Positions 30,483 through 47,702 are shown, numbered from the stretch's first letter. The stretch: DNA of 64,000 nt from Spirochaeta cellobiosiphila DSM 17781 (GCF_000426705.1 NZ_KE384557.1:261758-325757); one strand, 5' to 3'. The notes: generated by a model not told the origin, from the letters alone. Numbers and translations: made by a program.

Positions 30483-31175
30483 GTGATCAAAGATTCCTCT
30501 TTTGATAATAATAATTATGATCTCATTCAGGACAGAGACTTTAGAGTCTTCATGATTGATGATGCTCTCCAATGCAATAGCAGCTCTCGTGTTTCCACTT
30601 CTATAGGCTTAGCCAGTATGATATATCATATGGGTATACGAGATAAAAATGCTTCCTTTGTCCTGGATCTATTAGAGACCAATAACGAATATGTAGTGGA
30701 TGCCCTTGTTGTTGATAGTGATCCCTTTATTATGATGAGAAATATTACTCCCACAAGGTTAATCTTGAGTAAAACCTTTAAGATTCTAGCTTTTCACAAT
30801 CCAGGCCACCTTTATCCCAAAGTCCTATTGGCATTATTGGGGGTTATCGATATTGCATACAAACGTTCTGTTGACGGTTTTGATATCTATCCTTTTACCC
30901 TTAGTGAGCTGAATAACATAAGTAAATATCTAGATGAATCACGAGATCAATTTGATCAAGTCAACAAAGTACTGTTGCGTATATTAGAGAATCTTCATGA
31001 CATGGGAATCGGATCAGATGATTGGAAAATCCGTCTTATGGCCTTCCAGGCTATCCAGATAAGACTAGCCTTTTTTGATCAGAATAAATCCCTTATTGAT
31101 ATCATTCCTGAAGAACTTCTAACTAGAGTAAAAAAGAGAAGATCCATCAAACCTGACAGTTTTAATCTGGCCTGA
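30483..31175 (+). CDS. Paralogue array member 1: unknown all-helical protein
   Basis: A 230-residue cytosolic protein of a family I do not recognise, first of five tandem copies. Shared family marks: NEYVVDALV followed by DPF, PGHLYPKVLLALLGV, DGFDIYP, LNNISKYLDE, then VNKVLLRILENL, IRLAFFDQNKSLIDIIPEELLTR. It is the most divergent copy and lacks the early CRTSE-like segment of copies 4 and 5. The start is a GTG without a clear ribosome-binding site; the ATG at 30552 is an alternative. A gap of 142 nt, holding a TTGACA element (31252-31257), separates it from copy 2, so copies 2-5 may form their own transcript. Confidence 0.75.
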   Translation: MIKDSSFDNNNYDLIQDRDFRVFMIDDALQCNSSSRVSTSIGLASMIYHMGIRDKNASFVLDLLETNNEYVVDALVVDSDPFIMMRNITPTRLILSKTFKILAFHNPGHLYPKVLLALLGVIDIAYKRSVDGFDIYPFTLSELNNISKYLDESRDQFDQVNKVLLRILENLHDMGIGSDDWKIRLMAFQAIQIRLAFFDQNKSLIDIIPEELLTRVKKRRSIKPDSFNLA

Positions 31176-31317
31176 AAACAGGCCTGTCAATCGTAAAATA
31201 GGCCTAAAATCAATGTTTTTTACTTTTTTCTAAAAAAAAACACCGGAAATTTGACAAATCGCGAATCATTTCTAAGACTTTCTATTAGAAACCCGTATTG
31301 AGGGAGGTTTACTGATA

Positions 31318-31995
31318 GTGTCCATAAAAGAAGCATTTAGAGAAACTAGCGATAAGTTCAAATTGCGCTATATGGATGAGGTTTTTCAGGTGAAGGAGGA
31401 ACATGCGGTTATGTCCGCTGTTACTTATGCCTCTTTCCTAAACCAATGGGGATTACAGCCTGATAACTTTGTCCTGTTTTTCCGTTGCATGGAAATTGGA
31501 AACAAGTACGTTATAGATGCTTTGACAGAGGGGAAGGACCTGGAGCATTTCTTTGACGGTATAACACCAACCTATGGTCTTGTTAACCAAGTATTTAAGT
31601 TACTAGAAGCTAATAAGAAAGGAGGAATCTACGAAAAGGTTCTTGTGATTCTTCTTGGTTTTTTAAACAATGTTTACTTATCTCCTCAAGAAGGATACGA
31701 CCTGTACTCTCCAGATATTGAAGAGATCAATAAGCTTGCTAAATTCCTGGATGAAACCAAGAAGCAGGATTTTCCCGTAAACCGTATCATGCTTGATATT
31801 CTAAAGCACCTGGATGAGTTGGATTGGGAAGAGAAGTCAGGTCCTAAATACACACTAGCGAAACATGCAGGCAAGATACGTTCAAACTTCCTTGATGATA
31901 CTCGTCATTTGAATCAAAGCATTCCGTCTATCCTGCTTGAGCTCGACCCGGATTTTACGGATGGTATTAAACCACCCTATGTATATCAGGACTAG
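31318..31995 (+). CDS. Paralogue array member 2: unknown all-helical protein
   Basis: A 225-residue member of the same family. Family marks: PDNFVLFFRCMEIGNKYVIDAL (about 47-68), KGGIYEKVLVILLGFL, EGYDLYSPDIEEINKLAKFLDE, VNRIMLDILKHLDEL, and IRSNFLDDTRHLNQSIPSILLEL near the end. It starts at a GTG with GGGAGG ten bases upstream. No signal peptide or membrane helix is present. It is separated from copy 3 by only 8 nt, so copies 2 to 5 are almost certainly one operon. Confidence 0.78.
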   Translation: MSIKEAFRETSDKFKLRYMDEVFQVKEEHAVMSAVTYASFLNQWGLQPDNFVLFFRCMEIGNKYVIDALTEGKDLEHFFDGITPTYGLVNQVFKLLEANKKGGIYEKVLVILLGFLNNVYLSPQEGYDLYSPDIEEINKLAKFLDETKKQDFPVNRIMLDILKHLDELDWEEKSGPKYTLAKHAGKIRSNFLDDTRHLNQSIPSILLELDPDFTDGIKPPYVYQD

Positions 31996-32003
31996 GAGGA
32001 AGG

Positions 32004-32702
32004 ATGAAAGGCGCTGAATGGAAGAACGTCATCTCTGAAGAAGAGTTAGTTAAGCTTCGACTTGAAGCCATTGACTACATTATCAGAGCAGACGAACCAC
32101 ACCGGGTAGATGCGGCTATTGAGTTCGCCAAATATCTTAATTATGTAGGACTTAATCCCGACAACTATCCTCTGTTTATTGAGATCATGGAAAATGGAAA
32201 TCCCCATGTATTAGAAGCTCTCATTGGTCAAAAGGATCCTTTTACCTATTTTGATGTTGTGGAGACAAGTCCTTATATGATCCATGAATTTGTTCAGATA
32301 CTCTATCAATTTCAACCTGGAGCTCTGCATGAGAAGCTGGTGTTGTTAGTGATGGGAGTTCTGTTGAGAACCTATATCGATCCTATTGCAGGGTACAAGA
32401 AATACCAGATCAGTATGGATGAACTGAATGCCATAGGTAAAAACCTGGATCCTGAAAAGGATCAGAACGACCCTCTCAATCGAAAAATCTTGGACTTTTT
32501 CGGTGAAATCGGGGACATCATAAACGTGAGTAACGACGAAGCCCTGGAGTTGATTGCCAACCATGCCATTAATATCCGGAATGTCTTCCTCGATCCAACT
32601 CAAAAACTTTCGGATAAAATTCCTGAACTGTTAGTTCAGAGAGTAAAATACCTGGATGGGGCCGTCCCCCCCAGGAAAACCAAACCACTCAAGGAGTCGT
32701 GA
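32004..32702 (+). CDS. Paralogue array member 3: unknown all-helical protein
   Basis: A 232-residue family member with a perfect AGGAGGA before its ATG. Marks: PDNYPLFIEIMENGNPHVLEALIGQKDPF (in pieces about 50-78), PGALHEKLVLLVMGVL, AGYKKYQISMDELNAIGKNLD, DPLNRKILDFFGEI, IRNVFLDPTQKLSDKIPELLVQR. The conserved DPF and IPExL motifs are intact. It lies 8 nt after copy 2 and 3 nt before copy 4. Function unknown. Confidence 0.78.
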   Translation: MKGAEWKNVISEEELVKLRLEAIDYIIRADEPHRVDAAIEFAKYLNYVGLNPDNYPLFIEIMENGNPHVLEALIGQKDPFTYFDVVETSPYMIHEFVQILYQFQPGALHEKLVLLVMGVLLRTYIDPIAGYKKYQISMDELNAIGKNLDPEKDQNDPLNRKILDFFGEIGDIINVSNDEALELIANHAINIRNVFLDPTQKLSDKIPELLVQRVKYLDGAVPPRKTKPLKES

Positions 32703-32705
32703 AGA

Positions 32706-33401
32706 ATGACAGCACAAAACGACGAATTCACCGACAAAGTATGGTCACTGGAATCCATAGCGAGGGTGGAAAACTCCATCATAAACAACATTTTCGGATG
32801 TCGAACTAGTGAAGGAGTTGAGGCCGCTATCGCATATATTCGGTTCCTCAGAGAAAGCGGCCTTACGAACGAGAACTACCCACTTTTTCTAAAGATTCTG
32901 GAAATCGATAACCACTGGGTTATTGATGAGCTCATCGGTTCAGGAGATCCCTTTCTACTGTTGACCCCCATACAGCCTACCAAGCATTTGGTATCTACCT
33001 GTTTCAGATTGTTGACCAACTGGCATCCAGGTGGAATCTATCCAAAGACACTTGCCATATCGCTTGGAGTCTTACAAGTTGCCTATTGTTATGCCAAAGA
33101 TGGATACAACATTCACCCAGTATCCATCAATGATGTAAACAACTTAGGTAAGCACTTAAATAAGGACCTTGGTCAGGCGGATCCTATTAATCAGGTTATA
33201 TTGGATATCCTTGATAAGATCAGTCTTCTCGAAGGTATCGGAGACGAAGCTATGGAAAGAGTTGCTCGACAAGCTACGCTCATTAGAAGTAATTTCTTTG
33301 ATCGACGTAAGAAGCTTGAAGATGCTATTCCTCAGGTTCTATTGGTTAAATCAGATTACCTTGTCAAGGAAATCGCACCTACCAAAGTTTTCGTAAACTA
33401 A
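32706..33401 (+). CDS. Paralogue array member 4: unknown all-helical protein
   Basis: A 231-residue family member, closest to copy 5. Long shared runs include GLTNENYPLF, NHWVID-L, DPFL, HPGGIYPKTL, LGVLQ, DGYNI, LGKHL and VILDILDKI. These suggest that copies 4 and 5 come from the most recent duplication. The N-terminal CRTSEGVEAAIAYIRFL segment is shared only with copy 5. The ATG follows the copy 3 stop by 3 nt. Function unknown. Confidence 0.78.
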   Translation: MTAQNDEFTDKVWSLESIARVENSIINNIFGCRTSEGVEAAIAYIRFLRESGLTNENYPLFLKILEIDNHWVIDELIGSGDPFLLLTPIQPTKHLVSTCFRLLTNWHPGGIYPKTLAISLGVLQVAYCYAKDGYNIHPVSINDVNNLGKHLNKDLGQADPINQVILDILDKISLLEGIGDEAMERVARQATLIRSNFFDRRKKLEDAIPQVLLVKSDYLVKEIAPTKVFVN

Positions 33402-33421
33402 GAGCAAAGGAGTAAAAGGTA

Positions 33422-34234
33422 ATGATTATTCTTGATAAAGAAAGAATTTTTACCAATGAAGACATTGGTTATATAGAAAACAGTATGTTGAACGGCATTC
33501 TTGCCTGTCGTACTTCAGAAGCTGTTGAAGCGGCAATTACATATTCTCGTTTCCTAAGTAAAACTGGTTTAACAAACGAGAATTATCCCTTATTCATCAA
33601 AGTCCTGGAGATAGGAAACCATTGGGTTATTGATGCTCTTGTAGGAGACAGAGATCCCTTTCTCTTCCTTAGCTCTATTCAACCTAATAGAAAGATCTCA
33701 CAGGCTATGTTCGCCTTACTTGCAGAACGACATCCTGGAGGAATGTACCCTAAAACTCTGTCTATTATACTGGGAGTATTACAGGCTCTGTATAACAGTC
33801 CGGAAGATGGATACAATATCTACAGTCTGTCCGTGTCAGACTTAAACTCATTAGGTAAACACCTTGATGAAGAAAAAGGACAAGAGGATTCTTTGAATCG
33901 TGTAATCCTCGATATACTGGATAAGATCGGTCAATTGGAACGACAGGATTCCATTGATGCTCAGACAGAGGAGATTGCCATTCACTCTTCCAAGATACGT
34001 AATTTCTTCTTTGATGCTAATAAGAAACTTAAGGAAGTTATTCCAGAAGTTCTTCTGGTACGAATGCGTTATCAGGATTTTGAAGTGGCACCCAGAAACG
34101 AAATCGATCATAAGGAAGAAAAGGGCGGTCCTGCTGCAAATCCAAAACCACCAAAAGCAGGTGATTCCGCTACTCCTCCCAAGCCTAAAGCTGAGGCGGC
34201 ACCTAAGAAAGCGGCTCCTAAAAAGGACGACTAA
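33422..34234 (+). CDS. Paralogue array member 5 with Ala/Pro/Lys tail
   Basis: A 270-residue protein: a full family domain (about 1-228; CRTSEAVEAAITYSRFL, ENYPLFIKVLEIGNHWVIDALVG, HPGGMYPKTL, DGYNIYSLSVSDLNSLGKHLDEE, IRNFFFDANKKLKEVIPEVLLVR). It ends in a unique 40-residue tail rich in Lys, Ala and Pro (KPPKAGDSATPPKPKAEAAPKKAAPKK). That tail resembles histone-H1-like or nucleic-acid-binding tails and contains possible Ser/Thr phosphosites. AAAGGAG precedes the ATG. The array ends at the terminator 20 nt downstream. Confidence 0.78.
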   Translation: MIILDKERIFTNEDIGYIENSMLNGILACRTSEAVEAAITYSRFLSKTGLTNENYPLFIKVLEIGNHWVIDALVGDRDPFLFLSSIQPNRKISQAMFALLAERHPGGMYPKTLSIILGVLQALYNSPEDGYNIYSLSVSDLNSLGKHLDEEKGQEDSLNRVILDILDKIGQLERQDSIDAQTEEIAIHSSKIRNFFFDANKKLKEVIPEVLLVRMRYQDFEVAPRNEIDHKEEKGGPAANPKPPKAGDSATPPKPKAEAAPKKAAPKKDD

Positions 34235-34252
34235 GAATCTTATTACTAATGG

Positions 34253-34284
34253 AAAAGTCCGGCTTAGGGTGCCGGACTTTTTTT
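34253..34284 (+). terminator. Strong terminator ending the paralogue array
   Basis: AAAAGTCCGGC (34253-34263), a seven-base loop and GCCGGACTTTT (34271-34281) continue into a T-run. The stem is perfect and GC-rich. It works for the plus strand and, given the A-run on the left, possibly also for the convergent gene. Confidence 0.92.
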
Positions 34285-34306
34285 ATATCCCAACAGAACT
34301 TGCCAG

Positions 34307-35452
34307 TCACCAACGGCTTTTGAACTGCCTGTAATTGCTTTCATCGACTGTTTGACCATTAACGGTAGCGACAGCACCCTTGAAAAGGAACTCTCCATCC
34401 GCATCGAAGGGGGAGCGGGCTTCAATATTAAGAATTCCTCCTAGAATATGGAGATCGCCATTAGAATCCAAGGCATCTGTATCACCCTCAGCCATTTTTA
34501 TCTTAATATTACCTCCCTTAATGAGTATCAACATAGAACGGGAGGACTTATTAGAAGCATTAATTCCATCATCTCTTGCATATAGATTAATCGTGCCTCC
34601 ATTGACTTGGACTTGCGTTCCTTCAATTCCTTCTCCACTGTCAGCAATATTAATAAATCCACTATCAATCTGAACAAAACTATCCCCCCGTAAAGCATCC
34701 TCTACAGTAGAAAGCTCTATGGTGGAATTATTGATATAAAGGTAACTATTGTCAGGGGTCTTGTCACTTGTACTTCTAATACCATCTTTCTGGGATACAA
34801 GACTGATTTGAGCATTAAGTAGACGAATAGCTCCTTCGGCATCGATGCTATCCTTGTAGGATTGAATATTTAATGTAGAACCTATTACTTTCACAATTCC
34901 ATTTGTTTTTATAGCATCATTGGCCTGGGCATTAATCAAGAGAGAACCTTTTCCTTTGAAAGTAATATCATAAGGACTATAAATAAGCCCTTTGGCCTCT
35001 TTATACCTACTGGAATGACTTTGCTTTCCAGTAAGAGAATTGGAACCCCTCAGGTTGATTAACAATGCTGTTTTGGATTTAACCCAAAGGGCTGGTTTAT
35101 CCTTGTTATTAATACTCAGATCCTCCATAACAAGCTGTACTGTAGCCGAGGTCTTAGCCAGGTCAATAATAATAGTCGTATCAGAGTGTACCCCCTTAAG
35201 GTAGTAACTCCCGGAAGAGGTAATTGTATAGTCCTGATGGTTCTGTAATGGGACTGTGATCAGGTCCTCTTCATTGACGGTGTTGTCAAAATCCTGGATG
35301 GTAAACAATTCTGAACGTTTAACCAGAGAACCTTTGATTTCCCGGTCCACAAAATTGTCTCTTTCTTGTCGAGGGGCCTCCCTATTCTGGGCAGAGGCTG
35401 TGACGCCCACAATAATTAAAATACTGAATATACTCATATATTTAGGAAACAT
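34307..35452 (-). CDS. Secreted beta-helix carbohydrate-binding-domain protein (DUF4353-like)
   Basis: A 381-residue exported protein. A signal peptide (about 1-21, ending VTASAQ) precedes a short linker and a long right-handed beta-helix. Repeats of the type GLIYSPYDITFKGKGSLLINAQANDAIKTNG, DSIDAEGAIRLLNAQISL and DALDSNGDLHILGG are those of the DUF4353 (Cthe_2159-type) family, which binds acidic polysaccharides with calcium. Asp/Asn at the turns (DAIKTNG, DGINAS, DALDSNG) would hold the calcium ions. The family is often encoded next to CotH or polyphosphate-polymerase-like genes; here the next co-directional genes are a kinase-fold protein and a phosphoesterase. Confidence 0.82.
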   Translation of the reverse strand: MFPKYMSIFSILIIVGVTASAQNREAPRQERDNFVDREIKGSLVKRSELFTIQDFDNTVNEEDLITVPLQNHQDYTITSSGSYYLKGVHSDTTIIIDLAKTSATVQLVMEDLSINNKDKPALWVKSKTALLINLRGSNSLTGKQSHSSRYKEAKGLIYSPYDITFKGKGSLLINAQANDAIKTNGIVKVIGSTLNIQSYKDSIDAEGAIRLLNAQISLVSQKDGIRSTSDKTPDNSYLYINNSTIELSTVEDALRGDSFVQIDSGFINIADSGEGIEGTQVQVNGGTINLYARDDGINASNKSSRSMLILIKGGNIKIKMAEGDTDALDSNGDLHILGGILNIEARSPFDADGEFLFKGAVATVNGQTVDESNYRQFKSRW

Positions 35453-35495
35453 ATTAGCGCTCCTTAATTAGATCTATATTCAGTATAATAATTAG

Positions 35496-36452
35496 TTACT
35501 CATTCTCAAAATCTTCCTGTGTACTAAGGAAGCTGGAACCCATAATGCCATATTCCTCTCGCATTTCATGAACAGACCGTTCCTGTAAAGTTTTTATCTT
35601 TTCATCTCCATACCAGCTATAGAAATAATCTCTTATGTAATCACGTCTTTTCATAATATTGGCGGTGATCGTATCAGCTAATTTTGTTCTCTCCCCTTTA
35701 GGAACATCCTTAAAAACATGATTACAGATCTTCTCCAGATCTTTCTTCTGAATAGAGTCAAAAGCATCAAAACGTTTTTTGAAGAAATCCCAGGAATAGG
35801 TATAAAACAATTCTGTCTTTAAAGGTGTCATATATCTGGTTTTACCAGGCCTTTCCCAGCCAAAAGTATCCTTTGTCCCTTTAATTTTCATTTTAGTATC
35901 CATGAGATCTACATTGGAAAAGTCGATTGTAATGATGATAGGGAAGTTGCCAGGAGTGTAATAGATTAAGTAGTTATTAGGATTACGGTCCTCATCAAAG
36001 GTGACCCAGCTGTTAATCAGATCCAAAGCTAACTGGTCTCTCATCACCTTTTGTTCCAGATACGGTGCCCCACTAAGCTGTTCCGTTCTAATCATGATCT
36101 TACTGGCCCGATAATACTCTCCTCCCAGTTTTGTTACCAAAGAGGGCGCTGCTGTATTTCCTGTAAAGTAGTTAAGAAAATAACAGATCTCCCCAAACTG
36201 GAATTGCCGGGCTTCCTCTTTTGGGATTTTCTTAATGATCCACTTAGCATTAGGATCTTCCTTTTCATAAGCTCCTATATAGTCTCTCGTTGTAGCAAAG
36301 AACGGTATGTCCATATATTCATCCGGTTCGAGAAAATCATCGGTTGAAAACTTTTCCAATGATTCTTCAAAGGTCGTGTGATAGTCCAGCATTTTTGTTA
36401 AACGTTCATCTTTAGATATTTCACTTGCAATATCGAAATTCTTTTTGGCCAT
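35496..36452 (-). CDS. Kinase-fold protein of atypical (HipA/PI3K-like) type
   Basis: A 318-residue cytosolic protein I cannot place in a named family, but it shows the landmarks of an atypical protein/lipid kinase fold in order. These are a strand with a lysine pair (KWIIKKIP, K74/K75), a helix with a glutamate (FGEICYFLNYF, E88), a catalytic loop FDEDRNPNNYLI (D153/D155, N157, N160), and the metal-binding IITIDFSNVDL (D177). HipA and PI3/4-kinases use the pattern DR(H/N)xxN followed by (I/F)DF. It lies 20 nt after a PPP-type phosphoesterase gene, as a likely kinase/phosphatase pair. Activity is inference. Confidence 0.7.
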   Translation of the reverse strand: MAKKNFDIASEISKDERLTKMLDYHTTFEESLEKFSTDDFLEPDEYMDIPFFATTRDYIGAYEKEDPNAKWIIKKIPKEEARQFQFGEICYFLNYFTGNTAAPSLVTKLGGEYYRASKIMIRTEQLSGAPYLEQKVMRDQLALDLINSWVTFDEDRNPNNYLIYYTPGNFPIIITIDFSNVDLMDTKMKIKGTKDTFGWERPGKTRYMTPLKTELFYTYSWDFFKKRFDAFDSIQKKDLEKICNHVFKDVPKGERTKLADTITANIMKRRDYIRDYFYSWYGDEKIKTLQERSVHEMREEYGIMGSSFLSTQEDFENE

Positions 36453-36472
36453 AAAACCCCTCCAATGGCTAA

Positions 36473-37420
36473 TTAATAGATATCTCCTAGAAAAAAGCGG
36501 CTTTTTTGAATTTTGAGGTCTACATGAATCAATTCATGTTCATAACTGTTTTTACTGAACTTGATGATAGGACAGGTTTCCTGTACTGAGGAGTAGATAA
36601 TGATATAGTTTTTAGCCCCCATAATATTGAACCAAACCGATTCATCTCCACCCAGGTTATACAGAGGATTGTGACCCACAATAAAATAAATATCCGGATC
36701 GACTCCCAATAACTCCTTAGTTTTATTAATATCATCTTCTGTATATTCTTTGTTGTTAGCTAAGGATCCAATGGTGTTAATACGGTTCCACATGAGCTGA
36801 AAGGCATCAGTTTCATAACGGCGGATTTCAATAAGATGATCTCTTGTACATCCTCCTCTGACGGGACCGGCATGCACACAAAGAAAAGCATCTGCCATGA
36901 TAAAAAGGGGCAGGGTATTGAACAGCTCCTCCACCTTATTCCTGTACTCCTCACCTCTGTGTGCGACCAAAAATTCATCAAAATACTTAGCCTGTTTGAT
37001 CCCGCTTTTAACAAGTAAGTGGTTAAAAGTATCATGGTTGCCTTGAAGGAATATAAAATTCTGGGGCCAACGGACCATACATTCTAGAACTAATTCTAAT
37101 AATTCCAGGCTTGGTTCCATCTCTGTTAGATATCCTGTACGGTCATCATGAATAACATCGCCCACTAATATAAGAATAGCTTTATCCTGATCAAGCTTAT
37201 TTTCTATATCATCTGTTTCTAATATGCATTTGAAATTATGCAAATTAGCATGGAGATCTCCAACGATAAAATACTCTTTTGCTATTCCCCTAAAATCAAT
37301 AAGAGCTCCAGGTTTGTTCTCTGCTGTCCTAGGTCTGACCTTAGCAGGAAGGGCCTTCCGTAGTTCAAGCACCTTGTCCAGCATCGCCATACTCCCTCGT
37401 TTGGGAAGGGATTCACTCAT
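36473..37420 (-). CDS. Calcineurin-like (PPP-type) metallophosphoesterase
   Basis: About 315 residues with all five metal motifs: FIVGDLHAN (about 52-59), LVGDVIHDD, LQGNHDTF, VHAGPV and VGHNPL. The GDxH / GDxxDR-like / GNHD order and the HAGP motif are those of PPP-family protein phosphatases and ApaH-like enzymes. I start it at the ATG at 37420 with AAGGAGAT just before it; the longest frame adds eight residues. It is first in a two-gene unit with the kinase-fold protein. It is divergent from the acidic anchored protein at 37550. Protein or nucleotide substrates are both possible. Confidence 0.87.
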   Translation of the reverse strand: MSESLPKRGSMAMLDKVLELRKALPAKVRPRTAENKPGALIDFRGIAKEYFIVGDLHANLHNFKCILETDDIENKLDQDKAILILVGDVIHDDRTGYLTEMEPSLELLELVLECMVRWPQNFIFLQGNHDTFNHLLVKSGIKQAKYFDEFLVAHRGEEYRNKVEELFNTLPLFIMADAFLCVHAGPVRGGCTRDHLIEIRRYETDAFQLMWNRINTIGSLANNKEYTEDDINKTKELLGVDPDIYFIVGHNPLYNLGGDESVWFNIMGAKNYIIIYSSVQETCPIIKFSKNSYEHELIHVDLKIQKSRFFLGDIY

Positions 37421-37549
37421 ATAATCTCCTTCGGAATTGTTCAATAGGAACGCACTCCTAACTTAAATTAAAGTACACCCGAGGGGGAGTGTCAAAAAAT
37501 ATTTCCTTTTTGGGGCTATAACTACGATAATTATAAGGAGAGGATATAA

Positions 37550-39193
37550 ATGATAACAAAGGACTTGCAGGATAAACTACAAGAACTCTATAACGTGGCC
37601 AATCTTTACAAATGGACCAGCCAGACAGAAGCACTCATCACAGAGGTTATCAAAAAAGCTAAAGGCAAGATGAAAGAAGCTCTTCAAAGTGCTCTCTACT
37701 TAAAAATGCGTCAAGCAGATAGCTCAAAAGAAGAGATTATCATATCTCTCATATTGCTCTCCAAGTTAGGGGTTGATCTGGATAGAATCACAGAAAAAAC
37801 AGTGGACTACCTAATGAACAAGATCTATGTGGTAGATTTCCAGTTCCTGATTACCCACCTATTCCCTCAAGGCGCCCCATTACCGGAAGACCTCATCTAT
37901 GACATTACTTCGAGAGTCGTCTTTGATATACGCAACAGCTATGACAGAATCGCCAGAGGTTTCCAGCGGGTTCCGAAAAAGAGAGGAAGTGAAGCCATAT
38001 TGTATTTATCCGGGCTCATTTGCCGTCCCGATCTCAGTGCTCAGAACAGGGATCTTCTCTATATTATATTGTCTAAAGTTCAATTACCCTTGCCACCTAA
38101 TTTAGCGACCATTGCCAATCTAAAGCTTATTGATATCCGCAAAAAATTAAGTCATAAATCACTTAAATCCTTAAGAAACCTAACTCTGGAAGGGGAGGAT
38201 GTCCCAGAACCAGAAGAAAACGTCCCCGAAGAATTTCACAGTTTAGAACAGGATACGATGAAATCGAGAAAGAACTTTCTCGACATCTCCTATGAAGACA
38301 GACGTAATATTGAATTAAATAATCGGGATAATCAAAGCTCTGATCATCAGGAAGCTGCTGATAGAGGAAGCTTGGGTATCTCCCTGGAGCGGGAACAAGA
38401 TAGCAGTAAAGGAGAGGATCTCGAATCTTTACGAATTAGTTCAAATCAGGGAGGGGATAAAAAACAGGACAGAGCCCCTCTCCCTGAATGGGATAGAATA
38501 GCATCGGAGGAACATGAGACAGAGGCTCCTCAAAGCAAAAAGTCCACCCCCAAAGCAAGTACTCCTTCTTTGGAGGAACCTAGACCAGTCACCACAGGTA
38601 TTGAAACTACCATTGAAAATGATCCCCTCGAAGATACATCAAAAGGTTTAAACTATAAAACTTCAAAGGATAGTAAAGCTCCTCAAATAGAAAGTAGGGA
38701 AGAGAACAGCACAACAAGCTACAAAGCGTATCAGGAAGCAGGTAAGGAAGATGGGATCAAACTGGACTCCATAGATGATCTCTTTGAAATAGAAGAGGCA
38801 AAACACTTAGAAACCAGGACAGGAATAAACAAAAAGACTACAACTGCGGATACAAAAGATTCAGAAACCAGAAAACCAAAGAAAGCAAGAAAGAAGGCCC
38901 CCTCCAGAAAAGATCCCTCAGAAAAGGCTCCCCCTGTAGAGGCAGAAAATGTACATAAAACAGAAATCTCACCAGAAACAAAGAAAGGACTATCCCAAAG
39001 CTTAGGTGGTCTGACACGTTACTGGAAGAAAATCCTTCCTTTTCTCTTTATTCCTCTGATTATTGCTATTATATCAGCACTATTGTATAACCCTATGAAT
39101 GATCCCAGCGAACCAACCAGAAACAATAATCCAACAACAGAAGATGTTAAAACAACAGGCCTCTCCTACATTCCCTATACATTATTGGCATGA
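37550..39193 (+). CDS. Large acidic protein with C-terminal membrane anchor
   Basis: A 547-residue protein I do not recognise. Residues about 1-210 form a helical, repeat-like domain (ALQSALYLKMRQADSSKEEIIISLILLSKLG, VVFDIRNSYDRIARGFQRV). Residues about 215-480 are charged, low-complexity and rich in Ser, Thr, Lys and Glu, so probably disordered and a good substrate for Ser/Thr kinases. A single membrane helix lies near the end (ILPFLFIPLIIAIISALLY, about 500-520), with a short tail after it. The helical head would face the cytosol. It has AAGGAGAGG before the ATG and sits between the two phosphosignalling gene groups. Confidence 0.72.
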   Translation: MITKDLQDKLQELYNVANLYKWTSQTEALITEVIKKAKGKMKEALQSALYLKMRQADSSKEEIIISLILLSKLGVDLDRITEKTVDYLMNKIYVVDFQFLITHLFPQGAPLPEDLIYDITSRVVFDIRNSYDRIARGFQRVPKKRGSEAILYLSGLICRPDLSAQNRDLLYIILSKVQLPLPPNLATIANLKLIDIRKKLSHKSLKSLRNLTLEGEDVPEPEENVPEEFHSLEQDTMKSRKNFLDISYEDRRNIELNNRDNQSSDHQEAADRGSLGISLEREQDSSKGEDLESLRISSNQGGDKKQDRAPLPEWDRIASEEHETEAPQSKKSTPKASTPSLEEPRPVTTGIETTIENDPLEDTSKGLNYKTSKDSKAPQIESREENSTTSYKAYQEAGKEDGIKLDSIDDLFEIEEAKHLETRTGINKKTTTADTKDSETRKPKKARKKAPSRKDPSEKAPPVEAENVHKTEISPETKKGLSQSLGGLTRYWKKILPFLFIPLIIAIISALLYNPMNDPSEPTRNNNPTTEDVKTTGLSYIPYTLLA

Positions 39194-40279: not shown

Positions 40280-40294
40280 GACCGTCTCCTTTCT

Positions 40295-41668
40295 TTATTT
40301 CTTAGGCTCATCGAAAACGATCGTCGTTCCTTCAATGTTAATAACATCTCCGGAAGTTAACTTTCGTTTCTTAACAGGATTATTGTTTACCATAACTTCC
40401 GACTTAGATACCAGAGTATAGTCCCCTGTTTTATCATTTCTCATAACAGTCACGTGTTCATCGGCTATAGAAGGTTGGCCACTAATGGTAAGATTAGCTT
40501 CTGTAGAACTTCCAATAACGGTGTTTGCCTGGTTAAGGGCAATTGTCCCTGAGCTAACAGAACGTTTATTAGGCCCAATAACCTCTAAGCCTGCAACCTT
40601 GGCTGCTGATTCCCATTTGATAAAACCAATGAGGGATAAAACTAAACCTGCTAAGGGAAATAATATCAGGTATGGCAGGGGATCTGCTAGAGCGGCTTCT
40701 CCCATTAGGTTTTCAGAATAAAAATATTGGGTTGCCCGGTTCTGTTCCTGACCATAATCGATGTCGATTCTAACAAATTGTTTGTCACTTCTTGGCTGTT
40801 TAGCTCTGTAGGTGGCTACGTATTCTGTTAGGATTCTTTCTTTGATATCCTTATAGACTCCCAGTAATTCCTCTTGGTTATAGGCTTTGTAACTGGTTCC
40901 CCCAGATTTAATGGCCAGCTCCCGTAAGGCAGGATCTCCGTGACCACCAAAATCGATGGCAAACAAACTAACCCCTGCTTTCTTCAAAGCTTCCAAAGAA
41001 ATAAGAGAGCTTCCCTGGACTTCACCGAACTCGGGATGAGGTTGATTCAAATGTTCTGTATAACTGAAATTTTCACCGTCAGATAAAACAATAAGAGCTT
41101 TACGTCCATATACATCGGTCATATTCCGGGAAGCCAAATCAATAGCCCAAAATAATTCTGTGTAAGCGTCTTTTCCCTCTGGTTTAATAATACTATCCAG
41201 ATAAGTTCCCAAGACCCTATCATGTGTTCCCGGTTCAATATGCTGTACATAATGGGTATTAAAGCTGGCTAATCCAATGGTGTCCTTTGGATTGGAGATA
41301 GATCCGGCAAAGCGGAGGAGGGCATTCTTGGCCTGATTGGCAGGAAGTTCCCCCTTACCGTCATACATACTTCCTGAGTTATCAATAAGGAAGAAGAAGT
41401 TAATACCCCTGTCTAAGTCAGCCATTCTGGTTAATTGTAAAGGGACTTTAGGATTATCAAAGGCACCCCCATCATAGCTTTCTGATACCTTTACCTGATC
41501 GATGGTGATATCCTTAAGAGGGGAGGAATCGCCATCTGTTACACTAAAATACAGATCCACTTCCTGATTCAAGAGCAGACGTGCTGTGTCAATCTGATTA
41601 AGATTAACGTTAATAGCCCCCAGAGAGGCACTGATTCCTATAAAAAGAAAAGCTAGTATTTTATTCAT
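40295..41668 (-). CDS. Exported VWA-domain protein with C-terminal degenerate FHA domain
   Basis: A 457-residue protein. A signal peptide (about 1-18) leads to a beta-sandwich, then a VWA domain (about 90-300) with a complete MIDAS (DNSGSM at 96-101, later TELFWAI Thr and LSDGENFS). A membrane helix follows (about 338-356), then a cytosolic FHA-like domain (about 375-457). The FHA copy reads VIGSSTEANLTI ... SIADEHVTV: the phosphothreonine-binding Arg after the first Gly is missing, but the His is kept. It may therefore sense something outside and dock to the kinase inside. Its start overlaps the end of the upstream gene by one base. Confidence 0.85.
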   Translation of the reverse strand: MNKILAFLFIGISASLGAINVNLNQIDTARLLLNQEVDLYFSVTDGDSSPLKDITIDQVKVSESYDGGAFDNPKVPLQLTRMADLDRGINFFFLIDNSGSMYDGKGELPANQAKNALLRFAGSISNPKDTIGLASFNTHYVQHIEPGTHDRVLGTYLDSIIKPEGKDAYTELFWAIDLASRNMTDVYGRKALIVLSDGENFSYTEHLNQPHPEFGEVQGSSLISLEALKKAGVSLFAIDFGGHGDPALRELAIKSGGTSYKAYNQEELLGVYKDIKERILTEYVATYRAKQPRSDKQFVRIDIDYGQEQNRATQYFYSENLMGEAALADPLPYLILFPLAGLVLSLIGFIKWESAAKVAGLEVIGPNKRSVSSGTIALNQANTVIGSSTEANLTISGQPSIADEHVTVMRNDKTGDYTLVSKSEVMVNNNPVKKRKLTSGDVINIEGTTIVFDEPKK

Positions 41669-42543
41669 TATTGTCCTCCTAGTGAGGTCAGTAGCAGCTT
41701 AAGATCACCTGCCTGGATAACATCCTCCCATTTGAGTTCCTGTTCTTTGACAGGATGCTCATTAAGAAGAAGAGGATGGGTTTTGGTCAAAGAAAGGAGA
41801 TACAACTTCTTACCTTTCTTCTGAATCACCCCATGTTCCTGGGCTAAGCCTGTATACCCTGACAAGCTTATATCCACTTTACGGCTTGCCCCAATGAGAG
41901 ACTTGGATCTGACCAGAGGGAATTGCTTTCCTTTGAACTTCCCATTCAAGACCCTAATAACGCCGTAGGTAACACCCGATTCCAGCAGACTATAGGCAAG
42001 AGCGATTGTTCCAGAAAATATGATGAGACCGAAGAGACGGCTATAAATAAAATGAGGTGCTATTTCGGCAGATTTTTCAATAAACAATCCTCCTACACAG
42101 CCCCCAATGATACCCCCACCTAATCCTATTAGTATCTTCTTAATAGATCTGGAACGTATTCCTTCTCCTATGGCAATGAACATTCCCAGGATAATCCAGC
42201 CAAAAGTCTTAAGAAGACTCTCATCCATTATATGAAGGTTCCCCACAAAAAGAATAAGGTTCTGGGCTAGAAAGAATCCTAAAATTCCACCTATACCACC
42301 AATCGTCCCTCCGATGATGGCCCCAGTACTGGTTTTATTACTATTCTTGGTGAGTAAACCTTCAGCACTTCCCAGGAAGGCTCCCATAACAGCACCAATG
42401 AGTAATCCCTGAACAAGGATAGATATGAGATAGCTGGGAAAGGCCCTTTGAAAGCTAATTGTTATTTCCATCAATGGCCATACTGCCACACCGGCTAGTA
42501 TGCCAACGATTACAATCAGTAATCGTTTAATAAAAGTTGACAT
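41668..42543 (-). CDS. Glycine-rich multi-pass membrane protein with C-terminal degenerate FHA domain
   Basis: A 291-residue protein with about six membrane helices full of glycine zippers (GAIIGGTIGGIGGILGFFL, GLGGGIIGGCVGG), reaching residue 190. A C-terminal FHA-like domain follows (LIGASRKVDISLSGYTGLAQEHGVIQ ... HPLLLNEHPV ... DVIQAGDLKLLL). As in the VWA protein, the usual GR is replaced (GAS), and EH remains. It lies between the PknB-type kinase (8 nt away) and the VWA gene (1-nt overlap), so the three are co-translated. The helix pattern suggests a pore or oligomer, but no function is known. Confidence 0.75.
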   Translation of the reverse strand: MSTFIKRLLIVIVGILAGVAVWPLMEITISFQRAFPSYLISILVQGLLIGAVMGAFLGSAEGLLTKNSNKTSTGAIIGGTIGGIGGILGFFLAQNLILFVGNLHIMDESLLKTFGWIILGMFIAIGEGIRSRSIKKILIGLGGGIIGGCVGGLFIEKSAEIAPHFIYSRLFGLIIFSGTIALAYSLLESGVTYGVIRVLNGKFKGKQFPLVRSKSLIGASRKVDISLSGYTGLAQEHGVIQKKGKKLYLLSLTKTHPLLLNEHPVKEQELKWEDVIQAGDLKLLLTSLGGQ

Positions 42544-42551
42544 GTAACCTC

Positions 42552-44405
42552 CTATTCAAGAGTCAGGATCTTATTGTCGTAAAGAGCTTCTTTCGTCACT
42601 GACTTTCCGCCATTTATGAGTAGACTTTCTTTTATTTTCTTACCGGCTCTGGTCAGGGTCAGTTGATATTCCCCTGGATAGAGGCTCAGCTCCCGGGTTT
42701 GGGTTCCTTTAATTTTACCTTCTGGAAGTTTGCGTTGATCCCCTTCTATCGTCCAACGAAACCCTTTAGTAGGAATCTTTATCTCTAAGGACCCCTTTTC
42801 TGGTAAGAGGGCCGCTTCCAAATGAAGGGTTGTCTGGTTTGTTTCGACAATCAAATGGTAGTACTTTTCAGTATATCCCTTAAGAACAACACGGAATTGA
42901 TAGGTTTCTCCTGTCATTAGACCGGCTTTTCGACTATTGGTTAAAGGCAGCCATTTGCCATTAGTGAACATATAAACCTGAGCTGGTCCTGTAAGGTTTT
43001 CCCCGGTAAAGTAATCCCAGAATTTTAACTCTGTCGTCAGAGGCAGAGCCCGGCTCGAGGATTTCTTGATCGAAACAATACGCCCCTTCTTTGTATGAAT
43101 CTCCTGTTTCTGAACAGGCCGGGGATTAAGGGTAATCGTATGCCAGTTCAATTGGTCATCCAGTATGAACTTAATCCGGTATTCTCCTGCAGGTAGATAT
43201 TGTTTGAGGGACTTGAATGTATAGAACTTGTCTTCCGGTGTTGATTTCAAAAGGTGAAAGTTCAAGGGTTTATCATTTATCCTAATAGGTTCATTGTCCT
43301 TATCCTGATAAATAATCGCTGATATAAAGTGGTCCTGGGGAAGACGGTCATCTATGGGGGTTTCTGCCTGCAGAACGAGGGCGCCATATCTTGTATTAGG
43401 CAGTATTTCATTATGCAGCCCTAATTTGAAGAGGGCAAAACCACATAATCCCAGAGCTCCCAGTCCTAAGGCCACAAGGATGGTTTTTTTTAGTTTTTGG
43501 AACTTCTTCGTTGGTTCTGGTGGTGTGTATTTCTTTTCTTCTACCAGACAATGGAGTTTTTTACGAAGCTCTGAAAGGTTTTTCTTACGGAAATGCCTTT
43601 GTAAAAGATTAATCACACGGCTTAGGTCCTTAATCCTTTTCTCCCTTTTGGGACTCATACACTTTTTAATGATCTTCTGGCTTAGTTTGCCTACCTGAGG
43701 ATTTACCTTACGGGGGTTTGTGTATTTTCCTTTCTGGATCTGACCTAATAATTCCGCACTAAAGGATCCGGGATAGGGCTTCTTCCCGGTAACCATCTCA
43801 TAGAGCATAACCCCCATGGAGTACACATCCGCCCGAAGATCCACTGTCCTTGTGCTTTCAAATTGTTCCGGTGCCATATAGGAGGGGGTTCCCAGGGTCA
43901 TTCCATCCTGGGTTAAGCCCTCTTCCTGATCTTCTCTGCTGGAGGCAATCCCAAAATCCACTAACTTGGCCTCGCCTCTTCGGCTTAAAAGGATATTCCC
44001 GGGCTTGATATCCCTATGAACGACCCCTTTCTTATGGGCATAGTGCAGAGCCCGGCAGGAATCATAAAATATTAATAAAGCCATTTCCTCTGAAAGGTAG
44101 CGTTCTTGTTTGAGGAGTTTATCCAGTGCCGTTCCATCTACATATTCCATAACGATGTAGTAACTGGTTCCTTCTTTGAAGTGGTCATACACGTCAACAA
44201 TGTTTTCATGTTTGAATTCCATCATCAGACGGGCTTCCCTTTTGAACCTTTCTGCTATGGCTTTTTTACCTCTTAAGGTAAGTTTTTTGAGTATGACCTC
44301 TGTATTAAGAGTAGGGTGATGTCCTTTATAGACAGCGCCCATTCCTCCCTTAGCCACCAGAGAATCTACTTTGTATTTTCCTATTTCTTCAGGTATCCTA
44401 GGCAT
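42552..44405 (-). CDS. PknB-type Ser/Thr protein kinase with membrane helix and periplasmic beta domains
   Basis: A 617-residue receptor kinase. The kinase domain (about 10-270) has the Gly loop AKGGMGAVYKG (18-28), Lys40, Glu57, the catalytic loop HRDIKPGN (130-137), DFG (150-152) and the activation-end motif GTPSYMAPEQ. A basic linker follows, then one membrane helix (about 311-330) and a 285-residue beta-rich part that resembles PEGA-type repeats rather than PASTA (YQFRVVLKGYTEKYYHL, LSLYPGEYQLTLTRAGKK). Kinase in, sensor out. It overlaps the phosphoesterase gene by 8 nt, so writer and eraser are coupled. Confidence 0.95.
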   Translation of the reverse strand: MPRIPEEIGKYKVDSLVAKGGMGAVYKGHHPTLNTEVILKKLTLRGKKAIAERFKREARLMMEFKHENIVDVYDHFKEGTSYYIVMEYVDGTALDKLLKQERYLSEEMALLIFYDSCRALHYAHKKGVVHRDIKPGNILLSRRGEAKLVDFGIASSREDQEEGLTQDGMTLGTPSYMAPEQFESTRTVDLRADVYSMGVMLYEMVTGKKPYPGSFSAELLGQIQKGKYTNPRKVNPQVGKLSQKIIKKCMSPKREKRIKDLSRVINLLQRHFRKKNLSELRKKLHCLVEEKKYTPPEPTKKFQKLKKTILVALGLGALGLCGFALFKLGLHNEILPNTRYGALVLQAETPIDDRLPQDHFISAIIYQDKDNEPIRINDKPLNFHLLKSTPEDKFYTFKSLKQYLPAGEYRIKFILDDQLNWHTITLNPRPVQKQEIHTKKGRIVSIKKSSSRALPLTTELKFWDYFTGENLTGPAQVYMFTNGKWLPLTNSRKAGLMTGETYQFRVVLKGYTEKYYHLIVETNQTTLHLEAALLPEKGSLEIKIPTKGFRWTIEGDQRKLPEGKIKGTQTRELSLYPGEYQLTLTRAGKKIKESLLINGGKSVTKEALYDNKILTLE

Positions 44406-45420
44406 AATCGTCCTTTAAAGTAATATTGGGTATCTCAAAGATATGGGTATCCAAGTTTATACTTCCTTCCACAGGAAGCCAAGCTACAATAAATCGGTTT
44501 GGGTTGTGGATTTGGACATATTTACCATTGGCTCTTGTAAAATAGCTACCTGCAATGGGACGATGGCCTCCAAAGTGGAAGACCTTATCCGTTTTTCCCA
44601 GAAAGTGTTCCAAACTTCGGTTGACACTATCCTTTTCAGCTTCCTCATTTGCTGTCCAGGTTAGACCATAGATAACTTCCGGTTTCGTTCGGTAATTGAT
44701 GATTTCCTCTGTGTTGTAGAAACGGGCTGGTTCGGCATGGGTGACGATAAAGTGACTTCCCAAGGCCATTAGAGGCAGGTTTGCTTCAAAATCATAGTAG
44801 CTGGCAAAAAAATCATCACTCATATACATCTGAACCCAGTCGGTTACCATTTGTCCTTCCATGGCGAACTTGCCAAAGGGATAGTTCCCATTACCATTTT
44901 CATTGGCTATGTTTTCATGATTACCTTTCAGAAAATGAAAATGCTGGGGAAAAGCGATCTTGAGTTCAATGATCATTTCCATTAACCCTAAGCTTTCCCT
45001 CATCTCTGCATCCATGTATTTATGTTTTCGGAATCCTCCCTGGAATTCTTCGAAAGCCTGAAGCCATCGATTCCTGACTCGTCCTTCCCCATGGAAACCA
45101 TCACCGACACAAACGATCTGAAGGTCCCCTCTGGTAAGCCGTTCCAATACTGTACTTCCGTTAAAGTCACAAGCTTCCATAAGGGATAGAATAAAGTCCA
45201 TGCGAGCATGAAGATCAGGAATGATAATCGTCTCGACAGGAAGGAGTTTTATTAACCCTCCGGGCAGACCTCCCTGATCAACAGGACGCATATCCTGATC
45301 CTCAGTCATCAGGATCCCATTCACTTGATCCACTTTTTGTAAATAACTCACAGGATCGAGGACTTTTTTGCGAAAGAAGATAGTTTTTAGTCGGTCCAGC
45401 ATTTTCTTGTAATCGGTCAT
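44398..45420 (-). CDS. Second calcineurin-like metallophosphoesterase, coupled to the kinase gene
   Basis: A 340-residue enzyme with PPP-type motifs: IIIPDLHARMDF (about 65-76), CVGDGFHGEGR, LKGNHENIANE, VTHAEPA and FGGHRPIAGS. Compared with the enzyme at 36.5 kb the first motif is PDLH rather than GDLH, and the arrangement differs, so they are not recent copies. The end overlaps the kinase start by 8 nt. The order phosphoesterase-kinase-FHA fits the eraser for kinase products, which elsewhere is usually a PP2C enzyme; none is seen here. The true substrate is not known. Confidence 0.85.
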   Translation of the reverse strand: MTDYKKMLDRLKTIFFRKKVLDPVSYLQKVDQVNGILMTEDQDMRPVDQGGLPGGLIKLLPVETIIIPDLHARMDFILSLMEACDFNGSTVLERLTRGDLQIVCVGDGFHGEGRVRNRWLQAFEEFQGGFRKHKYMDAEMRESLGLMEMIIELKIAFPQHFHFLKGNHENIANENGNGNYPFGKFAMEGQMVTDWVQMYMSDDFFASYYDFEANLPLMALGSHFIVTHAEPARFYNTEEIINYRTKPEVIYGLTWTANEEAEKDSVNRSLEHFLGKTDKVFHFGGHRPIAGSYFTRANGKYVQIHNPNRFIVAWLPVEGSINLDTHIFEIPNITLKDDYA

Positions 45421-45426
45421 TATCTA

Positions 45427-45957
45427 TTAATCAACCACCATTGTTTTATTTACTTCAATAAAGTTCTCTGTAATGATCATTGTTGCTTCATCAAGAATAC
45501 TTTCCTCATCGGCAGGATCCATATCTTCTTTTAGAATAGCTATCTGATAGATAGGAGAACTCTTCTTGATTGGTCCTTTGGAAAAATGTACTTCTCCGTC
45601 TATAACAATGTCCTCTGTTAATTCAGAGTCCGCATTTTCTGCCGCTTCAGGAACGTCTTCTCTTAGGCCGATGCTGGCATAGGAAGCCTTACGATTGCCT
45701 TCCATTAATGGTCCAATATTCACTAAGGAACCTGAATAAGTGAGAACCAGGGCTCCTTTTGGATCATCCTTGGCCAGCTCCTCTACCGTGATAAGTCCTA
45801 GTTTCTCTAGCTCTTGTTCAAAGGCTTCCTGTTTTTCCAGCCACCCTCCGCTTAGTAGTTCAAGACTATCATCGTTATCCGGAAGACCTGCTATTTTGAC
45901 CAGTCTTTTAATATGATCCTGTAATTTGACTGGAATTTGTTGAAAATTATCACCCAT
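45427..45957 (-). CDS. Hypothetical acidic protein, first gene of the kinase operon
   Basis: About 176 residues, unknown family. The N-terminal third is helical (IPVKLQDHIKRLVKIAGLPD, EKQEAFEQELEKLGL), the rest is acidic with strand-like stretches (KGALVLTYSGSLVNIGPL, IYQIAILKED, TMIITENFIEVNKTMVVD). I start it at the ATG at 45957, five bases after AGGAGGAAA; the longer frame adds six residues across that ribosome-binding site. It ends 6 nt before the phosphoesterase gene. It could be a soluble regulator or substrate of the kinase pair. Confidence 0.68.
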   Translation of the reverse strand: MGDNFQQIPVKLQDHIKRLVKIAGLPDNDDSLELLSGGWLEKQEAFEQELEKLGLITVEELAKDDPKGALVLTYSGSLVNIGPLMEGNRKASYASIGLREDVPEAAENADSELTEDIVIDGEVHFSKGPIKKSSPIYQIAILKEDMDPADEESILDEATMIITENFIEVNKTMVVD

Positions 45958-46039
45958 CGTATTTCCTCCTGACATTGGCTTAATTCTTGATTCATAATGT
46001 AGGACTTGTTCTACTGATTATCCAGTGTTGTTTCCTATT

Positions 46040-46085
46040 TATACCAAAAGGTATACCTTGTTATCTTTTTCCGTGATATTATTAT
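46040..46085 (+). promoter_or_regulatory. Possible promoter with palindrome before the FHA gene
   Basis: TTGTTA (46058-46063), a 16-nt spacer and TATTAT (46080-46085) form a plausible promoter. TATACC-AAAA-GGTATA (46040-46055) is a palindrome just upstream. The -10 lies five bases before the ATG at 46091, so the FHA mRNA may be leaderless. Confidence 0.4.
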
Positions 46086-46090
46086 TGTGT

Positions 46091-46420
46091 ATGGACGAGA
46101 CACTCTATAAACGTAGTCCTCAGGGACAAAATAAACAACAACAAAAGGGCCGTCTCTTTATTGGGAACCGCTCTGTTAACTTTACTAAGGACATTTATAT
46201 TGGCAGGGGAGAGGATAATCAGATCGTTTTAGATAAGGATGATCAGATATCCCGTCAGCATGCTCTTATCAGGGTTTTAGCAGGGAGAGCCTATATCAAA
46301 GACCTTAATAGTACGAATGGTACCTATGTTAACGGCCAGCCCCTTCCTAAAGGGAAGTTAGTTCCTTTAAATCTTGAATCTGTAATACGAATTGGGAACA
46401 CATCCATTCGCTATGCCTAA
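46091..46420 (+). CDS. Stand-alone canonical FHA-domain protein
   Basis: A 109-residue protein that is almost entirely one FHA domain. All phosphothreonine-binding residues are present: IYIGRGEDNQIVL (Gly-Arg), ISRQHALIR (Ser, His) and LNSTNGTYVNG (Asn). It should bind phosphothreonine peptides made by the adjacent PknB-type kinase. I prefer the ATG at 46091; a GTG at 46025 would add a hydrophobic 22-residue lead. No ribosome-binding site is seen in front of the ATG. It is divergent from the kinase operon and overlaps the peptidase gene by 8 nt. Confidence 0.85.
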   Translation: MDETLYKRSPQGQNKQQQKGRLFIGNRSVNFTKDIYIGRGEDNQIVLDKDDQISRQHALIRVLAGRAYIKDLNSTNGTYVNGQPLPKGKLVPLNLESVIRIGNTSIRYA

Positions 46421-47702
46421 GCTTTGCTTAACCCTTCTTGTTCTACTCCTCTTTATGGGGTGTTCCCTCTTTACCTTGGAAGAGGGAGAACCTTCTAAAA
46501 CAAGCTGGACTCTTATGATTTATGCCAGTGGGGATAATAATCTCGATAATGATCTTCTTGATGATTTTCAGGAAATGGAAGCAGCCATCACAAGTGATTA
46601 TCTCAATGTTATTCTTTTAATAGACCTAAGTACAGCCAATACTGCTGGTATTGGCTTTAGTGATACCCGGGCTTATCGTATTCAACATGATGAGGATGAT
46701 AATTCCATAGGCTCAGAAGAATTAGAGATCGGACCCTTAGCCTTGTATACCTCTTCCCAGGAAGAGCTTGATCTGGCCAATCCTGATACTCTGAGTAGCT
46801 TTGTGAGTTGGTGTAAGGGGAATTATCCTGCTGACCATTATGCTCTTATCATGGAAGGCCATGGGGATGGCTGGTATAATGAGTCCTCTTATAACTCTGG
46901 AATCAGTGCAATGGGGGTAGGTCATGATGAAGATGATGGCCAGGGAAGTTCTACTTATCATTACCTTAGTCCCGGGGATATAGAGACTGCCCTCACAGGC
47001 AATGAAGTGGATATAATAGGCTTTGATGCCTGTCTTATGGGGACAGGAGAGACTCTTTATCAGTTAAGAGATATTGCAGATTTTGCCTGGGCCAATCCCT
47101 ATCCTGTTCCCGGTTATGGGAATAATTACCGTATTCTCCTGGAACACCTTGATCAAAGGCGTTCCTCTGTTGCTTCCTTTGGCTGGGGATACTTAAGTGC
47201 CTATGATGAGGCTTATGGTAATACCATTTTCAATGGGTCTTATCGAATGGATACATGTAATGTTGCTCTCTATGATCTATCCAAAATGAGCCAGTTTATC
47301 GAAAGTTCTGTCTTTGCTAAGTGGAATATCCTTTTGATGGATAAAATGGCCCGTATCAGTGAGGAGCAGGCAAATGGCCTGGCTATTGTTGATGATACTT
47401 CCCAATATATTATAAAAGATCCTGATAACTCTCAATTTCACTATAGGGATCTATTGGAACTGTATCGTTGGGCTGATAATACGAGTCTTGATCTGCCTGA
47501 TTTCGGAGGTTTTATTAAAACCTATAAATCCTACTATGCCTCAAGTTCAGATTCGGAGGCAGATTATCATTTAGGTATATATTTCCCTACGACAAAAATA
47601 ACTGAAGGTGATTTGTCTGATGACTTATCCGCCTATCGAAGTTCTCTGGATTTTGCTGATACCAATTGGGATGAGCTGATCGAGGCTTATCTGCTCCCTT
47701 AG
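46413..47702 (+). CDS. Clostripain-family (C11) cysteine peptidase lipoprotein
   Basis: About 429 residues. A lipoprotein signal (MPKLCLTLLVLLLFMGC) is followed by a caspase-like C11 domain: SWTLMIYASGDNNLD, the catalytic His in YALIMEGHGDGW (about 155) and the catalytic Cys in IIGFDACLMGTGET (about 214). The family cleaves after Arg or Lys and is usually self-processed. The signal places it in the envelope. The ATG at 46413 overlaps the end of the FHA gene by 8 nt; the frame extends a few codons further, but the signal peptide begins here. A strong terminator follows. Confidence 0.88.
   Translation: MPKLCLTLLVLLLFMGCSLFTLEEGEPSKTSWTLMIYASGDNNLDNDLLDDFQEMEAAITSDYLNVILLIDLSTANTAGIGFSDTRAYRIQHDEDDNSIGSEELEIGPLALYTSSQEELDLANPDTLSSFVSWCKGNYPADHYALIMEGHGDGWYNESSYNSGISAMGVGHDEDDGQGSSTYHYLSPGDIETALTGNEVDIIGFDACLMGTGETLYQLRDIADFAWANPYPVPGYGNNYRILLEHLDQRRSSVASFGWGYLSAYDEAYGNTIFNGSYRMDTCNVALYDLSKMSQFIESSVFAKWNILLMDKMARISEEQANGLAIVDDTSQYIIKDPDNSQFHYRDLLELYRWADNTSLDLPDFGGFIKTYKSYYASSSDSEADYHLGIYFPTTKITEGDLSDDLSAYRSSLDFADTNWDELIEAYLLP

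Follow-up and report, generated by a model that had tools for sequence, protein, structure and literature searches.

Two probably independent kinase and phosphatase modules lie side by side in Spirochaeta cellobiosiphila

Introduction

When genes for kinases, phosphoesterases and FHA domains cluster on a chromosome, do they form one signalling unit or several? The question is raised by Spirochaeta cellobiosiphila DSM 17781 (genome 3.95 Mb). The window that we analysed is a 64,000-nucleotide stretch (GCF_000426705.1 NZ_KE384557.1:261758-325757; G000:C27:261758-325757 in our labels for genomes and contigs). The genes of interest lie between positions 30,483 and 47,702. An earlier note, made from the sequence alone, described them as a single island, one switch with its own writers, erasers and readers. 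The genes named there are real and correctly placed. Domain scans confirm the PknB kinase, two PF00149 phosphoesterases, FHA and VWA domains and a C11 peptidase. We surveyed 296 genomes and searched 40 neighbourhoods fetched from the phylum by tblastn with the window proteins. Related loci include those of Spirochaetes bacterium and Treponema berlinense. Our data indicate that the genes probably belong to two independent reversible-phosphorylation modules, juxtaposed by chance in this spirochaete. Module A, on the left (30483-39193), comprises five paralogues of an array family, the kinase-fold protein KIN2, the phosphoesterase PPP2 and a protein that we call Unk547. Module B, on the right (40295-46420), comprises an ac182-PPP1-PknB-FHAmem-VWA/FHA operon and the FHA reader FHAs. 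No paper on either module was found in the open-access literature.

Results

The modules adjoin in one genome only

Modules A and B are side by side only in S. cellobiosiphila. In the other four genomes with both, they are 96 kb apart (G142) or on different contigs (G256, G068 and G047). In two genomes (G263 and G271) the left cassette is present but PPP1 gave no strong match. Hence, we judge the modules to be separate. Orthologues in relatives are kept together within each half, as the earlier note expected of a unit, but not between the halves. Gene content, order and conservation are direct observations, as are the predicted folds of KIN2 and an array protein. Could both kinase/phosphatase pairs and the array nevertheless form one integrated envelope switch? 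The modules touch in this genome, each has membrane proteins, and PPP1 and PPP2 are sister phosphatases. There is also weak sharing of genomes; 5 of the 11 genomes with Module A have Module B (odds ratio 3.2, p 0.064, not significant across the 296 genomes). Set against the dispersed arrangement elsewhere, these points leave a single switch very improbable, and the one-island reading should be dropped. What stands of the writers, erasers and readers is that the genes are genuinely linked, those of the right half in a conserved operon. A role in envelope stress is a guess.

Module B is a widespread spirochaete operon

Module B is lineage-typical. The five core genes, ac182-PPP1-PknB-FHAmem-VWA, keep their order and orientation in 23 further loci from Spirochaetota, and another two loci are truncated at contig ends. 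Treponema-type genomes have an FHAs-PPP1-PknB arrangement instead, in which FHAs adjoins PPP1. The most constant feature is the pairing of phosphoesterase and kinase. PPP1 adjoins PknB in 39 of the 40 fetched loci. Whole-genome searches placed a kinase downstream of PPP1 and on its strand in 62 of 64 genomes, at distances of 26-419 nt between the matched stretches (median 79 nt). The two exceptions are G259, where the PPP1 frame is broken by a stop, and G027. As had been noted, the overlaps in the window measure 8 nt for PPP1/PknB and 1 nt for FHAmem/VWA. Gaps of 6 nt and 8 nt separate PPP1 from ac182 and PknB from FHAmem, respectively.

PknB (42552..44405, minus strand) is a PknB-type transmembrane Ser/Thr kinase and the sole PF00069 match in the genome (E-value (E) 2.8e-55). 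The catalytic Lys, HRD, Asn and DFG Asp are kept in 36/36 orthologues and so predict Ser/Thr protein kinase activity. Its extracytoplasmic part has no PASTA match. The PASTA kinase model NF033483 scores 266 bits, over residues 9-300 only, where >450 is required. Hence, this is not a PASTA kinase. PPP1 (44398..45420, minus strand) is a PPP-like phosphoesterase (PF00149, E 2.6e-5) with metal-ligand positions kept in 40/40 sequences. The VWA protein (40295..41668, minus strand) consists of a signal or transmembrane (TM) segment, a VWA domain (E 1.7e-10), a TM helix and a C-terminal degenerate FHA domain. Its VWA domain has an intact metal ion-dependent adhesion site (MIDAS), with positions invariant or nearly so in 24 aligned rows.

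The three FHA domains differ in kind, much as described before. FHAs (46025..46420, plus strand, divergent here) is canonical (E 4.3e-21). The GR, SxxH and NG positions are kept in 17/17 sequences, which predicts phosphothreonine binding. FHAmem (41668..42543, minus strand) is a multi-TM protein of about six helices with a degenerate C-terminal FHA domain (E 8e-5). Here, the Arg is missing in 18/21 rows and the Ser of SxxH in 13/21, so the domain is not canonical. The same applies to the FHA domain of the VWA protein, where 23/24 rows lack the Arg and all lack the Ser at that column. This domain is below Pfam detection in the window, and 6/10 orthologues exceed the Pfam FHA cut-off. Module B thus appears to have one real reader candidate, FHAs. 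Because the phosphate-binding arginine is mostly lost, the domains of FHAmem and VWA are probably scaffolds.

The remaining core gene encodes ac182 (45427..45975, minus strand), a soluble, acidic protein with no predicted TM helix. It represents a new family, with the motif TYSGSL...SIGLRxDVP, for which Pfam and PDB gave no relative of weight and no fold or family assignment was convincing. The family is present in 34/296 genomes, often in two copies. The second form is longer and has an HU-type DNA-binding domain at its C-terminus; the two examples scanned match PF00216 with E 9e-14 and 3e-13. Judged by sequence, this form is near the operon in 11 loci. In S. cellobiosiphila it lies elsewhere (C25, L136:9130-9984). 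Hence, the HU domain of the paralogue suggests an output directed at DNA or at the nucleoid. Beside this gene, L136:8787-9155 is PilZ-like by eye only.

Our favoured model for Module B is as follows. The transmembrane kinase would sense an extracytoplasmic signal and phosphorylate Ser/Thr targets. Co-translated PPP1 would remove the phosphates and FHAs would read phosphothreonine, with FHAmem and VWA probably serving as membrane scaffolds. ac182 would probably be a target or adaptor, and its HU-fused paralogue could relay the signal to DNA.

Such a system resembles others already known. The mycobacterial pknB-pstP-fhaA/fhaB operon brings together a transmembrane Ser/Thr kinase, a metal-dependent Ser/Thr phosphatase and FHA readers. 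Module B shares this linkage of transmembrane Ser/Thr kinase, metal-dependent phosphatase and FHA reader. However, its phosphatase is PPP-like rather than PP2C and its kinase lacks PASTA repeats. Three further components set Module B apart: a membrane protein combining MIDAS-VWA with FHA, the multi-TM FHA protein and the ac182/HU family. A second comparison is the TerY-P triad of VWA protein, PP2C and Ser/Thr kinase. Genes for VWA, phosphatase and kinase are grouped in Module B too, but the VWA protein is predicted to be extracytoplasmic and is FHA-tailed, and the phosphatase belongs to PF00149, not PP2C. We conclude that Module B is ordinary in kind, as a kinase, phosphatase and FHA operon, and new in composition, with a multi-paralogue cassette next door. 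In Mycobacterium tuberculosis, FHA genes cluster with serine/threonine protein kinases and phosphatases (PMC1262709). Ser/Thr/Tyr kinases are reported absent from Treponema pallidum and Borrelia burgdorferi (PMC1262709), and we found little open-access literature on Ser/Thr phospho-signalling in other spirochaetes. Module B is a compact operon conserved in many free-living and Treponema-type spirochaetes, with a PPP-like enzyme in the place of the expected PP2C and a candidate DNA-linked output through ac182/HU. It makes the kinase-eraser pairing directly testable.

One putative phosphatase family accompanies two kinase classes

Each module pairs a kinase with a PPP-like enzyme in place of PP2C, as the earlier note had recognised. 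PPP2 (36473..37444, minus strand) is a calcineurin-type phosphoesterase (PF00149, E 7.4e-13), adjacent to KIN2 in nine of nine KIN2 genomes. Comparison by hhalign (99.7%, E 5.7e-26) shows PPP1 and PPP2 to be sister families, and they have an N-terminal RP...G.PGG motif in common. Hence, by sequence comparison, a single phosphatase family appears to accompany two unrelated kinase classes. The PF00149 domain and conserved metal ligands assign both enzymes to PPP-like phosphoesterases. PPP protein phosphatases carry the motifs GDxHG, GDxxDRG, GNHE and (I/L/V)D(S/T)G (PMC2887360). The corresponding motifs are PDxHA, GDxxH and GNHE in PPP1, and GDxHA, GDxxH and GNHD in PPP2. Compared with Lambda NinI and bacterial PPP enzymes, both families share GNH[DE] but have GDxxH instead of GDxxDRG, as well as their own RP...G.PGG motif. 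A bacterial PPP enzyme with altered motifs is active (PMC2887360). PPP2 matches the NinI-like Ser/Thr phosphatase family in PHROGs (phrog_246, E 1.4e-12), and its profile matches BSU1 in PDB (E 9e-8), with PP5, PP2B and PP2A weaker. PPP1 has no PHROGs match and its best PDB match has E 0.002. It is therefore more distant from known protein phosphatases than PPP2.

The motif changes raise the alternative that these enzymes are ApaH-like nucleotide or dinucleotide hydrolases, in which case the operons would connect a nucleotide signal with kinase signalling. Neither enzyme has GDxxDRG, diadenosine tetraphosphatases are found in the PF00149 superfamily (PMC2887360), and PPP2 matches the ApaH model NF001204, though below the cut-off (E 1.7e-4). 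Conversely, PPP1 is near-obligately paired with a Ser/Thr kinase, and PPP2 matches eukaryotic protein phosphatases and the NinI-like family. We therefore regard a nucleotide-hydrolase role as unlikely and favour phosphatases partnering the kinases.

The claim that PP2C is missing holds at the locus. PF13672 (PP2C_2) has no match genome-wide; PF00481 was not searched, so the absence applies to the locus and to PF13672 only. The genome does, however, have ten SpoIIE-type (PF07228) matches, as against only one PF00069 kinase.

Module A pairs a HipA/CtkA-like kinase fold with a paralogue array

KIN2 (35496..36452, minus strand) had been called a kinase-fold protein, and structure prediction agrees where sequence profiles are silent. 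No match of weight was found in Pfam, NCBIfam or PDB sequences. An AlphaFold2 model, built from an eight-member alignment, has a predicted local distance difference test score (pLDDT) of 83 and a predicted template modelling score (pTM) of 0.81. Foldseek matched the model to HipA, CtkA and PI4KII-alpha in PDB (E 2.7e-5 to 6e-4, probability 1.0). On this model, KIN2 is predicted to have a protein-kinase-like fold, nearest HipA/CtkA. By inspection, the invariant DEDRNPNNY loop and the ID motif fit a candidate kinase catalytic loop and metal-binding motif. The HipA_2 profile (PF20613) gave one weak match in 41 relatives and was no help in classification.

The array family is encoded by copies A (30483..31175), B (31318..31995), C (32004..32702), D (32706..33401) and E (33422..34234), all on the plus strand. 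This five-copy family at the left edge is a real array, with 28-33% identity to the first copy. In a maximum likelihood tree of 42 copies, the window copies group with copies from other genomes and not with each other. Copies C, D and E each form a clade with copies from G142, G068, G047 and G028 (support 98/95, 98/97 and 99/96, respectively). Copy B does so with copies from G142, G068 and G047 (100/100). Copy A is nearest the A copies of G028, G047, G142 and G068, with weaker support; it has a long end branch and a weak joining fork (85/69) within a 10-row clade (97/95). These copy-specific clades indicate that duplication came first and that separate parts were then retained. In two relatives the copy order is A-C-D-E-B. 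A model of copy E (AlphaFold2, pLDDT 87) is all-helical. The family has no match in Pfam, NCBIfam, PADLOC, PHROGs or PDB sequences. Foldseek found nothing significant for the model in PDB or among viral models, and the only resemblances are ARM/HEAT/MIF4G-like (E about 0.1 and worse).

Unk547 (37550..39193, plus strand) has a conserved N-terminal domain, a low-complexity linker and one TM helix (residues 495-513). Its N-terminal 205 residues match proteins within the cassettes of G142, G068, G256 and G047 (phmmer 1e-35 to 1e-8). Hence, we place Unk547 in Module A. In G047 the relative has LysM at its end (E 4e-14); the window copy lacks this region and stops soon after the TM helix. Unk547 is near-neutral in charge and ac182 has no TM helix; the acidic membrane-anchored protein described earlier does not exist as a single protein. 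By eye, the Unk547 N-terminal domain resembled the array family, but hhalign gave 5%. A link between the array family and ac182 was equally unsupported (0.2%).

Module A is the rarer of the two modules. The array was found in 11/296 genomes and KIN2 in nine (E <1e-20), all nine within the array-bearing eleven (p about 1e-15 if genomes are independent). The contigs that carry the array in the two genomes without KIN2 measure 3.3 and 5.3 kb. Wherever KIN2 was recovered (nine genomes), PPP2 and array copies are its neighbours, although G047 has its cassette divided between two contigs and G013 has stops in the KIN2 and PPP2 frames. Hence, the suspected link between array and signalling holds for the KIN2/PPP2 pair and not for the PknB operon.

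The HipA/CtkA fold invites another explanation: a toxin-antitoxin-like or anti-phage cassette, in which KIN2 is a HipA-like toxin, PPP2 reverses its effect and the array copies are sensors. The patchy distribution of Module A, mixing classes, is compatible with horizontal transfer. However, unlike HipA/CtkA kinases, KIN2 has no HipA Pfam match and no conserved HipB-like partner. Its conserved neighbours are PPP2 and the array. PADLOC matched neither KIN2 nor the array copy scanned. No array match was found in phages, plasmids or viral contigs, and no KIN2 match in plasmids. The large ordered set and the TM/LysM protein suggest a structural or envelope role. We consider a toxin or defence cassette decidedly unlikely.

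Instead, KIN2 and PPP2 could act on, or assemble with, the five non-interchangeable helical paralogues and the membrane-anchored protein. We tentatively propose, as a possibility short of probable, an undescribed signalling or assembly system in Module A. In it, four or five ancient helical paralogues, not interchangeable with one another, would form a hetero-complex coupled to the TM/LysM protein and controlled by a HipA/CtkA-like kinase with its PPP-like phosphatase. Spirochaetes would, on the same proposal, have recruited one phosphatase family to two unrelated kinase classes, one of them linked to HU-type DNA-binding output. Module A also brings to light a multi-paralogue family, so far uncharacterised, that goes with a HipA/CtkA-like kinase. 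In one subtype, the left cassettes have Ser/Thr kinase-like proteins beside them that are either weak or degenerate (L120:7248-8801, L121:4510-6429, L122:5562-7685 and L125:3396-5150). In G068, CBS-CBS is fused to a PPP2-like phosphoesterase beside the cassette, and G074 has a same-length homologue (L115:14924-16327; L126:5751-7154). A phosphatase under ligand control would be an informative variant.

Several points weigh against two independent phosphorylation modules. The association between Modules A and B is not negligible, and the two may be functionally linked. Our co-occurrence statistics ignore shared ancestry, and several surveyed genomes are incomplete drafts. TM-scores between KIN2 and HipA or CtkA are moderate (0.28-0.52). 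PPP1 and PPP2 depart from the textbook PPP motif set in lacking GDxxDRG, the fourth motif not having been systematically searched, and the PF00149 superfamily holds many enzymes that are not protein phosphatases. For both modules we infer catalysis, substrates, signal direction and output.

Neighbouring genes

A Cthe_2159-type carbohydrate-binding protein (34307-35452; PF14262, E 5e-51) is encoded between the array and KIN2 and has no relative in other left cassettes. At the right edge, the C11 clostripain-family lipoprotein-like peptidase (46392-47702; E 5e-42) overlaps the end of the FHAs gene by 29 nt. It had been counted as an island member, but it is not conserved with the operon and belongs to neither module in relatives. 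A promoter-like scan gave fewer sites than in shuffled sequence and we draw no claim from it. RluA and a 125-residue membrane protein are not part of either module in relatives, with one distant RluA match in L004. The RluA open reading frame as called (39099-39956) overlaps that of Unk547 by 95 nt.

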